Below are positions 10,506 to 60,275 of a stretch of 64,000 bases of DNA, piece by piece. The notes under the pieces were generated by a model, which saw nothing but the letters and a program-made list of their open reading frames with translations, ran no database searches and was not told the origin of the DNA. How positions within the stretch are numbered: the first letter of the stretch is position 1; every line of letters begins with the position of its first letter. This DNA is from Candidatus Nanoarchaeia archaeon (GTDB lineage Archaea; Nanobdellota; Nanobdellia; SCGC-AAA011-G17; JAFCDX01). The position numbers were made by a program, and so were the translations under genes. The stretch is from NCBI GenBank assembly GCA_028716945.1, contig JAQUOT010000002.1:124001-188000 (forward strand), in the 5' to 3' direction.

Positions 10506-11918
10506 ATGAAAAATATAGAATTACCTAACCTAACTCAATTGAGATTCGAATTAACTGATAAATGTAATCAAAATTGTAGTTTTTGCTGTATTTCTAAAGG
10601 AGATACTGAAACACTAGAATTAGAGCATATAAAAAAGACAATAAATAATGCAATTCCCCTAGGCTTAAAAGAAGTAAGTTTTACAGGCGGAGAGCCTTTT
10701 TTAAAATTTAAAGAATTAAAAGAACTTATTTCTTATGTAAAATCAAAGGGCTTAGAGACTGGAGTTTTAACAAATGCGACTTTGGTTACAGATGAAAACT
10801 TAAATGAACTTTCTGGTCTTGATTGGGCAAGAATATCTATAGAAGGTTTGCAAGAAATAAATGATTCTATGAGGGGAAAAGGAACTTATGAAAAAGTAAT
10901 AGAAGGCATAAAAAAATTTAAGAAAATGAAAGTTCCAATTAAACTCAGATCAACAATAACTAGATTTAATTTTGAAAGTATAGATGATTTAGTATCATTG
11001 GCCCATATGTTAGAAGTAGATAGTTTAGAATTTCAACCATATATTTTTCTTGGAGACAAAGAAAAAGATAATACTTTTTCATTGACCCCCAAATATCATA
11101 TGTTTGTTTCTAAGAAGTTACTTCAATTAAAGAAAGATAATAAATCTAAATTTAATATTAAACTTCTTTCAGGTTGGTTTGAATACCTTCATAAAGAATT
11201 TGAAGGTGAACCACAACCTTATTTTTGTGGTAGAACTTTTTTATATGTTGATGTGAATGGAAATGTAAAAACTTGTGCACCTAATCATAAAATTTTAGGT
11301 AATATAAAACAAGAATCAATTGATGATATTTTCAAAAATTCAAAAATATTAAATGATTTAAGAAATTATGATGCTTCTAAATATTGTCCAGATTGTAAAC
11401 AAGCAAAAAATTGTAAACCTTGTCCATCTCCAGCATTAAATTGTTTTGATACTTTGAATGGACCTGCTCCTAATTGCCCTAGTTGGCAGGAGAAAAGAAA
11501 TTCTAAAAGGTATTTCGAAGACCTTAAACTAGGAGATGTATGGATAAGTCCTTTGAGAGAGCCTATAACTTCTGAAGAAGTTCAAATGTATATGGATTTA
11601 ACAGGAGAAAGAAATAAAATGCACTCAAACGGGATTTATGCTCCAGGATATCTTTTATTTCAAAATATGGGAGCACTTGCACAGAAAGTAAATGTAAGAA
11701 AAGACGCATTTTTCAATGAATATTCTGCAAAATTATTATCTCCAATAATAATAAACCAAGATAGATTTTATTTACAAGAAACAGTTATAGAAAAACAAGA
11801 TAAAGGATCAAAAAATAGAGGATATATTGTTCTAGAAAGAAGATTAATAAAAGAAAATGGGGAAGTTTCAGTTAATTCTAAAATAAAAGTTCAAGTAGAA
11901 AAAAGACCATTATTTTAA
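10506..11918 (+). CDS. Radical SAM/SPASM protein fused to a MaoC-like hotdog domain
   Basis: 470 residues. The radical SAM core (1-210) has C20, C24 and C27 (CxxxCxxC) and 'SFTGGEPFL'. A SPASM-type region (about 240-325) is cysteine-rich ('YCPDCKQAKNCKPC'). From about 336 the protein continues as a MaoC/hotdog domain: 'YFEDLKLGDVWISPLREPIT', 'LTGERNKMHSNGIYAPGYL'. The hydratase motif D-x-N-x-x-H is here E-x-N-x-x-H. SPASM proteins usually modify peptides or other enzymes; the fused domain may bind an acyl group. The fusion spans one uninterrupted frame. Confidence 0.82.
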   Translation: MKNIELPNLTQLRFELTDKCNQNCSFCCISKGDTETLELEHIKKTINNAIPLGLKEVSFTGGEPFLKFKELKELISYVKSKGLETGVLTNATLVTDENLNELSGLDWARISIEGLQEINDSMRGKGTYEKVIEGIKKFKKMKVPIKLRSTITRFNFESIDDLVSLAHMLEVDSLEFQPYIFLGDKEKDNTFSLTPKYHMFVSKKLLQLKKDNKSKFNIKLLSGWFEYLHKEFEGEPQPYFCGRTFLYVDVNGNVKTCAPNHKILGNIKQESIDDIFKNSKILNDLRNYDASKYCPDCKQAKNCKPCPSPALNCFDTLNGPAPNCPSWQEKRNSKRYFEDLKLGDVWISPLREPITSEEVQMYMDLTGERNKMHSNGIYAPGYLLFQNMGALAQKVNVRKDAFFNEYSAKLLSPIIINQDRFYLQETVIEKQDKGSKNRGYIVLERRLIKENGEVSVNSKIKVQVEKRPLF

Positions 11919-13063
11919 AGTAACTTCTTAATTAAATCTTTTTCATTTAAATAAGTTTCTTTGCCTAGTTTCATATCTCTTAATTTATATTTTTTCTTTT
12001 TAATTTCTTCAGATCCAATGAATACAACATAAGGAATATTATAAGAATTTGCAAATTCCAAAGCTTTTGAGACTTTTCCGAACATTATATCTACAGAAAC
12101 AAAGTTTTTTCTTAATTTTTTAACTAGTTCTATTGAATTTTTATCTTGTTCTAGAGATATTATCAAGACTTTTTTCTCATCAACATCAACTTGAGCAATA
12201 GAACCAATTCTATCCAATCCAAAAGAAATTCCACTAGATTGAATATTATTAATTAAATAACTTCCACCAGCACAAATAGTTTCTTTCATAGCTTTTGTTT
12301 TTATTTCAAAAATAGTTCCATTGTAATAACTTAAACCTCTAGCTAACGAAGGTAAAAACTTAACTTCAACATTATAAAATTCACAATATTTTTTAAGTTC
12401 TTCAATTTCTTTGTAAGAATCAAATGTTTTAAAATAAGATTCTGGTTTTTTAAATATATCAAGTATTTTTTCTGCTTTATATTTTTTTAAGTTTTCTTTA
12501 ATCTCTTTTTCATCTAATTTATCAAGTTTATCAATTTCTTTTATAACTTCTGCTTTGTTTTCTTTGATATCATTCTTATCAAGTATTTCATTTAGTAATT
12601 TTCTATTATTAACATAAATTACACAATCAATTTTTAAATCTTCAAACACTTTTTTAGTCAAAGATAATATTTCTGCTTCATCTTTTATATTAGAACCAAT
12701 AATATCTACATCACATTGAGTAAATTGCCTGAATCTATTAGAACTTACAGGTTCATCTCTAAAAATTTCTCCAAGTTGATATCTTTTAAAAGGTAATTTT
12801 TTATTTTGAGCAAGTCTTTTTAACTGAAAGGTTAATTCGTATCTCAAAGCTAATTTTCTTTGTCCTTTATCTTGCAATCTATAAATATCAGAGATAACTT
12901 CACTTGTATTATCTGCTTTAACAAATTCTTCTGCTTCAATAATAGGTGTTTCTGCAGGTTCAAAACCATAAAGTTTAAAGTTTTTTATAAGAATCTCTTT
13001 AATTCTTTCTCTTTTAAGTGCATCAATTCCAATAATATCTCTAAACCCTTTTATAGTTTCCAT
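11915..13063 (-). CDS. hisS: Histidyl-tRNA synthetase
   Basis: 382 residues. Class II motifs are visible: 'IKGFRDIIGIDA' start, motif 2 'YQLGEIFRDEPVSSNRFRQF', 'RGLSYYNGTIFEI' (HisA-type histidine-binding signature) and motif 3 'GISFGLDRIG'. A short anticodon-binding domain follows (about 300-382). It is somewhat shorter than most HisRS (about 420). It charges tRNA-His, whose gene lies 2.2 kb away at 15245. Convergent with the radical SAM gene by 4 nt. Confidence 0.95.
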   Translation of the reverse strand: METIKGFRDIIGIDALKRERIKEILIKNFKLYGFEPAETPIIEAEEFVKADNTSEVISDIYRLQDKGQRKLALRYELTFQLKRLAQNKKLPFKRYQLGEIFRDEPVSSNRFRQFTQCDVDIIGSNIKDEAEILSLTKKVFEDLKIDCVIYVNNRKLLNEILDKNDIKENKAEVIKEIDKLDKLDEKEIKENLKKYKAEKILDIFKKPESYFKTFDSYKEIEELKKYCEFYNVEVKFLPSLARGLSYYNGTIFEIKTKAMKETICAGGSYLINNIQSSGISFGLDRIGSIAQVDVDEKKVLIISLEQDKNSIELVKKLRKNFVSVDIMFGKVSKALEFANSYNIPYVVFIGSEEIKKKKYKLRDMKLGKETYLNEKDLIKKLL

Positions 13064-14125: not shown

Positions 14126-14208
14126 AAATTTAATTATTAAAGTATATTCTATAAAATATATATTCTAACAAATTGCAACTTGCAAGATGTGCGCGCCAGA
14201 TTTATAAA
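14126..14208 (+). promoter_or_regulatory. Element shared by both LAGLIDADG genes (copy 1)
   Basis: 35 nt at 14152-14186 are identical to the complement of 60217-60251, including TTGCAACTTGCAAG. The next 22 nt (TGTGCGCGCCAGATTTATAAA region) differ by one indel and one substitution. Weaker similarity extends to 14126. TTTATAAA (14201-14208) is the TATA box and lies 22-29 nt before the ATG at 14230, so the message is leaderless. Two TTGCAA palindromes sit just upstream and look like an operator. Confidence 0.75.
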
Positions 14209-14229
14209 GCAAATTTACTAAATATTATT

Positions 14230-15246
14230 ATGGGAATCAGAGAAAGAGTAGTTTTTCCTAAAGGTAAACAAAAGCAATTTTTAGATTATATTTATAAGTT
14301 ATCTAATCTGCCTTGGAAAGAGTTAGGGTTGAAATTAGACGTAAATTCAGGAACTTTATTTCATACTTATAAATTTGAACAATCCAATATACCCTATAGT
14401 TTGTTTTTAAAAATATGTGAAACATTTAATTTAGACTCTAATGAAATTTTAAAACAAAATGATGCTAAAATTAGTAATGAAGACAGATCTTACCCAAGAA
14501 AAACGTTTGGAGAAACCAGGAAAAAATTAAGAGAAATAAATATAACTTTTATTAACAAAAATAATATTTTAAACAATGAGGGAATAATCTTTTCTAAGAA
14601 AGATGAAGAAAGAAAAATTAAATTACCTAATAAAATTACTCCAGAACTAGCAGAAGAAGTTGGAATGCATTTAGGAGATGGTTTTTTGTCTGGAAGAAAG
14701 ACTGAATATAGATTAAAAGGCAATAAAGATGAAAAAGATTATTATGATACTTTCATTAAAGGGTTGTATAAAAGCTTATTTAATATAAATTTAAATATAA
14801 AAGAATATGAAGATACTTATGGCTTTGAAATGTATTCTAAAGCAATTCACACATTTAAATCAAAAGTTTTGGGTTTACCTATTGGAAGAAAAATAAATGT
14901 TAAAATTCCAGATATCTTTAAAATAAATGATATAACCATATTAACTTCTTTATTAAGGGGACTTTATGATACAGATGGTTGTATTACTTTTATGTCTCAT
15001 TATAACCATAAAAAGTATTATCCACATATTACTTTTGCTCAAAAATCAGATTTTTTAATAAAAGATATTTATAATATATTGAAAATGTTAGGATTTAATC
15101 CTTGTTATTTCAAGGGGGAAGGCTATTCTAGTCTTAGTTTATATGGTTATAATTCCTTAAAAAGATACATGGATTTAATAGGATTTCACAATCCAAAACA
15201 TTTAAGAAAAGTAAATAACTGGAAATTATTATATCCAAAACTATGA
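14230..15246 (+). CDS. Free-standing LAGLIDADG homing endonuclease
   Basis: 338 residues from the ATG at 14230; the in-frame start at 14173 lies upstream of the TATA box and is rejected. The N-terminal third contains an HTH-like unit ('WKELGLKLDVNSGTLF'). Two LAGLIDADG helices follow: 'AEEVGMHLGDGFL' and 'LLRGLYDTDGC', each with the catalytic aspartate. The C-terminal 'YMDLIGFHNPKHLRK' resembles the end of the second endonuclease at 59495. It is not inside an intron or intein. Its TGA (15244-15246) overlaps the first bases of tRNA-His. Confidence 0.88.
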   Translation: MGIRERVVFPKGKQKQFLDYIYKLSNLPWKELGLKLDVNSGTLFHTYKFEQSNIPYSLFLKICETFNLDSNEILKQNDAKISNEDRSYPRKTFGETRKKLREINITFINKNNILNNEGIIFSKKDEERKIKLPNKITPELAEEVGMHLGDGFLSGRKTEYRLKGNKDEKDYYDTFIKGLYKSLFNINLNIKEYEDTYGFEMYSKAIHTFKSKVLGLPIGRKINVKIPDIFKINDITILTSLLRGLYDTDGCITFMSHYNHKKYYPHITFAQKSDFLIKDIYNILKMLGFNPCYFKGEGYSSLSLYGYNSLKRYMDLIGFHNPKHLRKVNNWKLLYPKL

Positions 15247-15331
15247 TGGCCGTGATGTAGCGGTAGCACACAAGCCTGTGGTAATTTTTTACAGACAGCT
15301 TGTCGGCCGAGTTCGAATCTCGGCGGTCATC
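15245..15331 (+). tRNA. tRNA-His(GTG) with 15-nt intron
   Basis: Acceptor ATGGCCG pairs with CGGTCAT, with the His-specific G-1 (15245) opposite C73 (15331). Anticodon stem CAAGC/GCTTG; loop CTGTGG, then a 15-nt intron (15282-15296, after position 37), then A38. T-arm CCGAG TTCGAAT CTCGG. D-stem has one weak pair. No CCA is encoded. It begins inside the stop codon of the LAGLIDADG gene and has no clear promoter of its own, so it is probably cut out of the endonuclease mRNA by RNase P. Confidence 0.93.
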
Positions 15332-15390
15332 CTCTAAAGTTTTAAAAAGTAAGTTTTATAAATACTTTTTAATTGATAATAATTTATACA

Positions 15391-57736: not shown

Positions 57737-57756
57737 TTTGATTTCCTTTTAGTATA

Positions 57757-57846
57757 CGGGCCGGGGGGGATTTGAACCCTCGACCACTTGCTTTCTATGA
57801 TGTGATCTTAAAAGGCAAGTGCTCTACCAAGCTGAGCTACCGGCCC
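57757..57846 (-). tRNA. tRNA-Lys(TTT) with 16-nt intron
   Basis: Acceptor GGGCCGG/CCGGCCC, G73, D-stem GCTC/GAGC, anticodon stem CTTGC/GCAAG, loop CTTTTA then a 16-nt intron (57793-57808, after position 37) and A38; T-arm GAGGG TTCAAAT CCCCC (one G-C order variation). TATA (57871-57878) 25-32 nt upstream. No CCA encoded. Confidence 0.92.
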
Positions 57847-57870
57847 ATTGCATAGCACTAGCTGATAGTT

Positions 57871-59359: not shown

Positions 59360-59462
59360 CGCCCCGGCCGAGATTTGAACTCGGGTTATAGCTTCGACAG
59401 AGCTTCACATTCTTGAAGAGATACTTCTAAGATTATGTGCTAGGCCACTACACAACCGGGGC
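59360..59462 (-). tRNA. tRNA-Asp(GTC) with about 30-nt intron in the anticodon stem
   Basis: Acceptor GCCCCGG/CCGGGGC, G73 (Asp-like), D-stem GTGT/GCAC, T-arm CCGAG TTCAAAT CTCGG. Loop CTGTCGA gives anticodon GTC. The 3' stem AGCTA needs TAGCT, which appears only after removing about 30 nt (59405-59434) between positions 27 and 28. That segment folds (CTT-GAAG with CTTC-AAG). It lies 32 nt downstream of the second LAGLIDADG gene. Confidence 0.85.
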
Positions 59463-59494
59463 ATAAAAGTTTATATTTTAATTTATTTATAAGT

Positions 59495-60172
59495 TTATTG
59501 TTTTAATAATTTTACTCTTTCTAAATAATGGGTATGGGGAGTATAATAACCAAGTTTATTCCAAATAGCAATCTTTGTTAGGTGTTTTGGATTAGAAAAC
59601 CCAATAAATTTCATCCATTTTTTTAGATTATGTCTACCATATATATCAATTTGATATTGAATAAAAGTTTTATTACCTAAAGTTGTTAATTTTGTGTAAA
59701 TATTTGCTTTTATATTAAATAACTTTAAAAGATTTTTAAGTTCTTCAGTAAAATTTTTATTTGAAAAACTTGAAGTAATAAAAGGATAATTATGCTTTTT
59801 CTTTGTGAATGATATACTAAAATCAGTATCTGCAATCCCCCTTATAAAATTAGCTATGAGTTTTTTGTTCTTTTTTGCAAAAGTTGGAATTCCCATTGTT
59901 TTTGGTCCAGAAACTAATCCAAGAGATATTAATTTTTCTATTACACTTTTTGAACAAACAGAAAGAGCTATCGCATTTTTATTCTTATGTTTCCAAATTG
60001 ATGCTTCTTTATTAAATAAAGTTTTAATTAAAGGTTTAACATAATTTATTAAATAATCATAATCTTCTTCAGAATGGCCAGTGACTACAAACCTATAAGT
60101 TCCACTTTTACTATAGATATTTCCATCGCCCAACATAATACCAATAAATTCAGCTAATTTTTTCTTATCCAT
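59495..60172 (-). CDS. Free-standing LAGLIDADG homing endonuclease
   Basis: 225 residues. Motif 1 'LAEFIGIMLGDGNIYS' and motif 2 'LIANFIRGIADTDFSI', each with catalytic D. Ends with 'KKWMKFIGFSNPKHLTK', like the endonuclease at 14230. Lacks the N-terminal HTH extension of that protein. Leaderless from the shared element (TATA 60194-60201). Not within an intron or intein. Followed after 32 nt by tRNA-Asp. Confidence 0.9.
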   Translation of the reverse strand: MDKKKLAEFIGIMLGDGNIYSKSGTYRFVVTGHSEEDYDYLINYVKPLIKTLFNKEASIWKHKNKNAIALSVCSKSVIEKLISLGLVSGPKTMGIPTFAKKNKKLIANFIRGIADTDFSISFTKKKHNYPFITSSFSNKNFTEELKNLLKLFNIKANIYTKLTTLGNKTFIQYQIDIYGRHNLKKWMKFIGFSNPKHLTKIAIWNKLGYYTPHTHYLERVKLLKQ

Positions 60173-60193
60173 AATTAAAAGAAGTAAATTTTA

Positions 60194-60275
60194 TTTATAA
60201 ATCTGACGCGCACATACTTGCAAGTTGCAATTTGTTAGAATATATATTTTACAGAAGATACTTTATTTAAATTTT
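60194..60275 (-). promoter_or_regulatory. Element shared by both LAGLIDADG genes (copy 2)
   Basis: Complement of 60217-60251 equals 14152-14186 exactly (35 nt). The adjoining TATGTGCGCGTCAGATTTATAAA (60194-60216) differs from copy 1 by one indel and one substitution. Similarity continues loosely to 60275. The flank also lies in front of the divergent gene at 60348. Confidence 0.75.

Follow-up and report, generated by a model that had tools for sequence, protein, structure and literature searches.

How does a free-standing LAGLIDADG homing endonuclease (HE) gene come to end flush with a tRNA gene, and from which promoter are the two expressed? The question is raised by a locus in a window of 64,000 nucleotides, i.e., the whole stretch of DNA that was analysed, in which the stop codon of such a gene overlaps a tRNA-His. 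The genome holding the window consists of two contigs with 803,636 bases in all, and contains archaeal rRNAs as well as RNase P RNA. The same HE gene family occurs in relatives labelled as Woese-, Pace-, Nano- or Micrarchaeota, and by these labels the host is a DPANN archaeon.

Two endonuclease genes and their tRNAs

The first HE gene (14230..15246, plus strand) encodes a protein of 338 aa, with an N-terminal HTH-like region of ~80 aa and a LAGLIDADG domain. The match to LAGLIDADG_3 (PF14528) lies above the cut-off (E=1.6e-6), and the HTH match at the N-terminus is weak and under the cut-off. The acidic motif residues are D150, D247 and D249; among 26 homologues the first two are invariant and the third is present in at least 90%. 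By its domain and these residues, the predicted protein fits a LAGLIDADG homing endonuclease.

The tRNA-His gene (anticodon GTG; 15245..15332, plus strand) begins with G-1 at 15245, has its anticodon at 15278-15280 and carries a 15-nt intron (15282-15296) after position 37. The TGA of the HE gene occupies 15244-15246 and covers nucleotides -1 and +1 of the tRNA, so that the overlap with an intron-containing tRNA-His reported in an earlier, sequence-only reading of this DNA is confirmed. A second copy of tRNA-His was not found in the genome by BLAST, which makes the gene single copy. HisRS is encoded at 11915..13063 on the minus strand; in relatives, tRNA-His lies directly 5′ of HisRS.

The second HE gene (59495..60172, minus strand; 225 aa, LAGLIDADG_3 1.4e-11) shares 32% identity over 211 aa with the first. 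It ends, as that reading also had it, 32 nt before an intron-containing tRNA, i.e., tRNA-Asp (GTC; 59360..59462, minus strand; 103 nt).

The tRNA-His at 15245 was detected neither by ARAGORN nor at the Rfam gathering threshold. Because these two overlook many of the tRNAs concerned, a finder was written that is built on the T-arm and acceptor; it was checked against Rfam hits, and its range was later widened. Automatic isotype assignment was unsuccessful for most multi-intron tRNAs. The sole tRNA that ARAGORN reports in the window (57756-57847, minus strand) has no assigned anticodon and is probably another intron-containing tRNA.

Endonuclease genes are linked to tRNA genes

Of the 12 free-standing LAGLIDADG genes in the genome, seven adjoin a tRNA. 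Four of them immediately precede a codirectional tRNA (His, Asp and two others, read as Met and Thr), two are convergent with the tRNA and touch or overlap it, and one is situated just 3′ of a tRNA that is Asn according to its anticodon. The remaining five are located at protein genes. The two-of-two arrangement noticed at first is therefore a count for the window, and only four genes of the genome share it. Counted with the strict finder over the fetched loci, where some overlooked tRNAs were identified by eye, a tRNA is found within 300 nt for 56 of 86 HE ORFs. In 77 named loci, the near flanks (up to 300 nt) total 45 kb and hold 65 tRNAs, whereas the far flanks total 299 kb and hold 20. This ~21-fold enrichment means that the adjacency is not due to chance, and it recurs in the manner expected of a SegB-like endonuclease. 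A common direction is not the rule that it had seemed, as, around the 86 ORFs, 11 tRNAs face the HE from its 3′ side and 11 others lie 5′ of it on the same strand.

Some HE families are associated with a single isotype. All 13 closest homologues of the first HE gene, from Woese-, Pace-, Nano- and Micrarchaeota, are located at tRNA-His: 12 directly 5′ and one directly 3′, in many cases with HisRS next to them. The ORFs of four of the 13 read through the whole tRNA in frame, and HE stop codons are found at recurring tRNA positions (nucleotides 13-15 in six cases, nucleotides 8-10 in two). Other HE subfamilies recur at Ile and Arg tRNAs. The presence of the gene is sporadic, since the HE lies at the tRNA-His/HisRS pair in some genomes and is missing from the same pair in most relatives. 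Altogether, both the tRNA linkage and the His specificity of the first HE gene's family are shown by these loci. There is strong support for the suggestion that an endonuclease linked to tRNA genes could home into tRNA loci, and the phenomenon is far more general than the two genes from which it was drawn.

It might be argued that tRNA borders are merely a place where insertion is harmless, so that HEs that target something else, or that are dead, persist there. Several homologues indeed have internal stops, and some HEs of this genome are found at protein genes. However, insertion at harmless sites would not lead one to expect a single family at tRNA-His in all 13 cases from four phylum-level groups, with others at Ile and Arg, or ORFs that enter or traverse the tRNA. 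We consider this explanation unlikely.

A number of separate observations were made at such loci. A decayed tRNA copy was considered as an insertion scar 5′ of the HE in locus L027 and was rejected, as the sequence can be read as tRNA-Leu whose T-loop apparently contains an intron. A candidate tRNA remnant is present 5′ of the HE in L018. In L005 (G000:C1:71214-71330), a tRNA-Leu-like gene has a T-loop that is apparently split into GGGTTCAA, an intron-like insert and TTATCCC. In L023 (700-860 and 2124), the sequence preceding the HE promoter resembles, at a modest alignment score, the 5′ end of the gene that follows the HE. The picture is as if an HE module had entered the start of the gene, with a second 5′ end restoring it. 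L110 contains a group I intron (1222-1417; Rfam RF00028, 84.8 bits) just 5′ of a tRNA T-arm, with a LAGLIDADG gene further downstream; in PMC6125680, every archaeal group I intron was in an rRNA gene. Elsewhere, on contig C1 of the window's genome, L012 (C1:249200-252415) and L024 (C1:252899-256096) resemble a diversity-generating retroelement, as they contain a reverse transcriptase together with a variable-repeat-like ORF. The C-terminus of this reverse transcriptase, ISFISDKYLPEKIKNKDFID, resembles that of a nearby topoisomerase VI-A-like protein.

A promoter element common to endonuclease genes and radA

The two HE genes of the window are preceded by a nearly identical stretch of ~70 nt, which the sequence-only reading had overlooked. 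Its parts are, in order, AT-rich TATATTCTACAAAATATATATT, TAACAAATTGCAACTTGCAAG, GTGCGCG and a TATA box centred ~25 nt before the ATG, a spacing that suits a leaderless mRNA. The middle of the element has nine copies in the genome; the reversed pattern has none. A sequence model, R1, was built from 11 aligned copies. It matches the element of the first HE gene at 14143..14210 on the plus strand (G000:C2:138143-138210; 77.9 bits, E=4.7e-22), where the element terminates in the TATA box TTTATAAA (14201-14208), and that of the second at 60192..60260 on the minus strand (77.3 bits, E=7.2e-22).

Run on its own genome, R1 finds 12 sites with scores from 53.7 to 77.9 bits, and the next match is at 12.2 bits. 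Eight of these sites precede free-standing LAGLIDADG genes, so that eight of the 12 HEs share their element with radA in this genome (hypergeometric p ~2e-14 for 8 of 12 sites and 12 HE genes, with ~900 genes assumed). The other four precede the radA operon, an operon of a small ORF and a metallophosphoesterase, an RNase_H_2-like protein (a weak match, under the cut-off) and a 279-aa protein. The last of these (L006; G000:C1:267053-267892, minus strand) has no Pfam match, ends ~20 nt before an IleRS-like gene and might represent a homing nuclease with a different fold. A search of genome G002, from the same family, gave ten copies of the core, belonging to the radA operon, the metallophosphoesterase operon, ~7 LAGLIDADG-type ORFs, an HTH-like protein and a degraded ORF. 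In two further genomes of that family, G001 and G003, the element is present before radA and the core search gave no other copy. The metallophosphoesterase operon bears the element in two genera.

Two side observations concern the radA operon itself. In L119 and L126, among others, a conserved leader, GAAATAAAAnCCGAAAGGnnnGGAGG, stands before the small protein preceding RadA and may fold into a hairpin close to the ribosome-binding site. In L137 (G018) and L121 (G051), a different LAGLIDADG-type gene is situated directly upstream of the radA operon; the usual element was not found there.

The element follows the host

Across the order, the core of the element differs between species, and HE promoters resemble the radA promoter of their own genome. 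The cores common to both could be read directly as ATTCAAACGACATACTCGCCAT in G076, ATTCACTAGTCCATYGGACAACCTCACGCG in G083, CCTTACAAATGTTGCATGTGCAA in G065, ATTATTTCCCAAYAACC in G033 and AAAACAATTCTTAT in G048. The summed match of HE promoters to their own radA was 520 in 21 genomes, against 239±23 after permutation; a larger set, with 31 genomes and 67 HE genes, gave 1473, compared with 762±61 for permuted genomes (z ~11). With sharing defined as a score of at least 18 against the radA upstream region of the same genome, 29 of the 67 HE genes, in 16 of the 31 genomes, reach the threshold and 38 fall below it. Among 133 other ORFs in the same loci a single one reaches 18, and this is an HE gene overlooked by the profile; neighbouring non-HE ORFs do not match the radA promoter. 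Beyond the order, sharing with radA was mostly absent and seen in at most three of 16 genomes.

The closest HE proteins of two species have promoters that are unrelated (mutual score ~12), each like its own radA (30-56). L091 and L092, for instance, have promoters that score 11.5 against each other and 41.5 and 30.5 against their respective radA. The mean score between HE promoters is 55.5 within one genome and 15.9 between genomes. By these promoter comparisons, it is the host that the element follows, not the endonuclease.

This bears on the idea that the element is a mobile promoter module spread by HEs, or an autoregulatory site bound by them, that radA acquired secondarily. Most copies are indeed HE promoters (8 of 12 here, ~7 of 10 in G002). 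The idea is nevertheless improbable: the cores of HE orthologues differ by species, each matching the radA of that species; radA of G001 and G003 has the element where no other copy of the core was detected; and the metallophosphoesterase operon shares it in two genera.

tRNA introns do not track the endonuclease

The intron had been read as part of the system. In collaborative homing, known from cyanophage psbA and T4-like systems, a free-standing HE acts together with a separate intron; by analogy, the HE would here cut the tRNA at the intron insertion site, the intron and the HE would spread jointly, and the intron would protect the resident tRNA. Apart from these phage and cyanophage precedents, the idea draws on the fact that all seven tRNA-linked HEs of this genome adjoin tRNAs longer than the intron-free length. 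However, introns are common in this genome regardless of HEs (~2/3 of the tRNAs found exceed 77 nt, a count that includes Leu and Ser tRNAs), so that their co-occurrence with both HE genes of the window is unsurprising.

The comparison with HE-free loci of relatives, which had been proposed as a check, points the same way. The tRNA-His of G001 and G002 and the tRNA-Asp of G002 have an intron and no HE, although collaborative homing would have empty alleles lack the intron. Conversely, tRNA-His lacks an intron at 11 of the 13 closest HE-linked loci, with an intron at only two, and the many intron-free HE-linked tRNAs include those of L090, L104, L105, L113, L154, L164, L174 and L190. A coupling of intron and HE was accordingly rejected for tRNA-His and tRNA-Asp. 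Collaborative homing is largely refuted at tRNA-His, and overall we regard it as very unlikely.

Transcription of the tRNA

When 24-43 nt separate the HE stop codon from the tRNA, this spacer usually contains a TATA box ~30 nt upstream of the tRNA; when the two genes overlap, such a box is often missing. The claim that no separate tRNA promoter is clear thus stands for tRNA-His, for which there is no convincing TATA box (best score -0.5), and falls for tRNA-Asp, which has one between the HE stop codon and the tRNA (59484..59492, minus strand; score 8.5, centred at -28). Taken together with the promoter of the HE gene, this suggests that tRNA-His is probably made from the HE promoter. If RNase P cleaves at G-1, the cut would fall within the HE stop codon.

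The proposal that expression of the HE gene relies on the transcription unit of the tRNA, with RNase P forming the 3′ end of its mRNA, could appeal to the overlap of the stop codon with nucleotides -1 and +1 and to the missing TATA box of tRNA-His, but it is most improbable, as HE genes have their own conserved promoter, common to radA, tRNAs with an HE end 24-43 nt upstream usually keep a TATA box at about -30, and RNase P would remove the stop codon where it overlaps; the reverse dependence is more likely.

A proposed timing of homing by the radA regulon

The reading that best accommodates these observations, to which we assign a probability of roughly 0.7, is that the host expresses tRNA-specific homing endonuclease genes within its radA regulon. 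Each free-standing LAGLIDADG HE would be specific for one tRNA locus, with the first HE gene in a tRNA-His-specific family. The HE would cut this locus on related chromosomes that lack the HE gene, and recombination would then place a copy of the gene right against the tRNA. Within this order, many HEs would be transcribed, as leaderless or short-leader mRNAs, from the ~70-nt element that serves as operator and promoter of the host radA operon. Their expression would then be tied to the state of RadA production, and breaks would be repaired by recombination, i.e., by homing, instead of being lethal.

Nuclease activity, the target and its exact cut site are predictions of this model, as are a regulator of the element and the induction of HEs by DNA damage or DNA entry. 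The co-members of the element besides HEs are few, namely radA, the metallophosphoesterase, the RNase H-like protein and the protein without a Pfam match, and its trigger may be other than DNA damage. Since an intron is not required, the homing reading leaves unexplained how the resident tRNA escapes cleavage. A broader version is only slightly favoured by us: DPANN archaea would have a recombination regulon centred on radA, the operator of which evolves fast, and selfish genes that home to tRNAs would carry or re-acquire this operator in each host, synchronising cutting with recombination capacity.

Double-strand breaks made by homing endonucleases are lethal unless recombination repairs them, and the timing of HE expression therefore matters to parasite and host alike. 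Many HEs are tied, species by species, to the promoter of the very recombinase that completes homing, which suggests that they cut only when the cell is ready for break repair. To our knowledge, genetic tools are largely lacking for DPANN archaea. The element would offer a handle on the control of recombination in this group, as it defines a small regulon and predicts a regulator, and the tRNA-His family offers predicted nucleases with a conserved, predictable target.

Comparison with known systems

An incomplete literature search, covering parts of the sources, turned up no description of archaeal tRNA genes with a LAGLIDADG neighbour, nor of a recombinase promoter that drives homing genes, which is weak evidence that tRNA-linked LAGLIDADGs under such a promoter are novel. 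Collaborative homing resembles the present case in that a free-standing HE adjoins an intron-containing gene, and differs in that intron presence does not track HE presence here. The LAGLIDADG endonucleases known from group I or BHB introns in archaeal rRNA belong to the same superfamily and Pfam families (PMC6125680). They are encoded inside the introns, whereas the HEs described here are free-standing beside tRNAs and far larger than tRNA introns.

The archaeal DNA-damage regulons are likewise comparable, as genes for recombination or DNA exchange are regulated in them, with induction being a presumption in our case. Homologous recombination genes are reported to be UV-induced in Halobacterium (PMC1224876), and the operator of the Orc1-2 damage regulon of Sulfolobus is the DDRE, ANTTTC (PMC9738581). 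In contrast to this hexamer, which is too short to judge in DNA this AT-rich, the element described here is ~70 nt long with species-specific cores, and its conserved core is a different one.

For the tRNA link, the closest known case is, by analogy, SegB of phages T4/T6, a free-standing GIY-YIG homing endonuclease of the tRNA region (Brok-Volchanskaya 2008, via PMC13096335). According to PMC13096335, SegB cuts inside tRNA genes in a recombination-dependent process. SegB has another nuclease fold and resides in a phage instead of a chromosome, and neither a favoured tRNA isotype nor a tie to a host recombinase promoter has been reported for it. What it has in common with the HEs of this genome is a free-standing endonuclease gene beside tRNA genes, with cleavage in the tRNA being a prediction for the latter.
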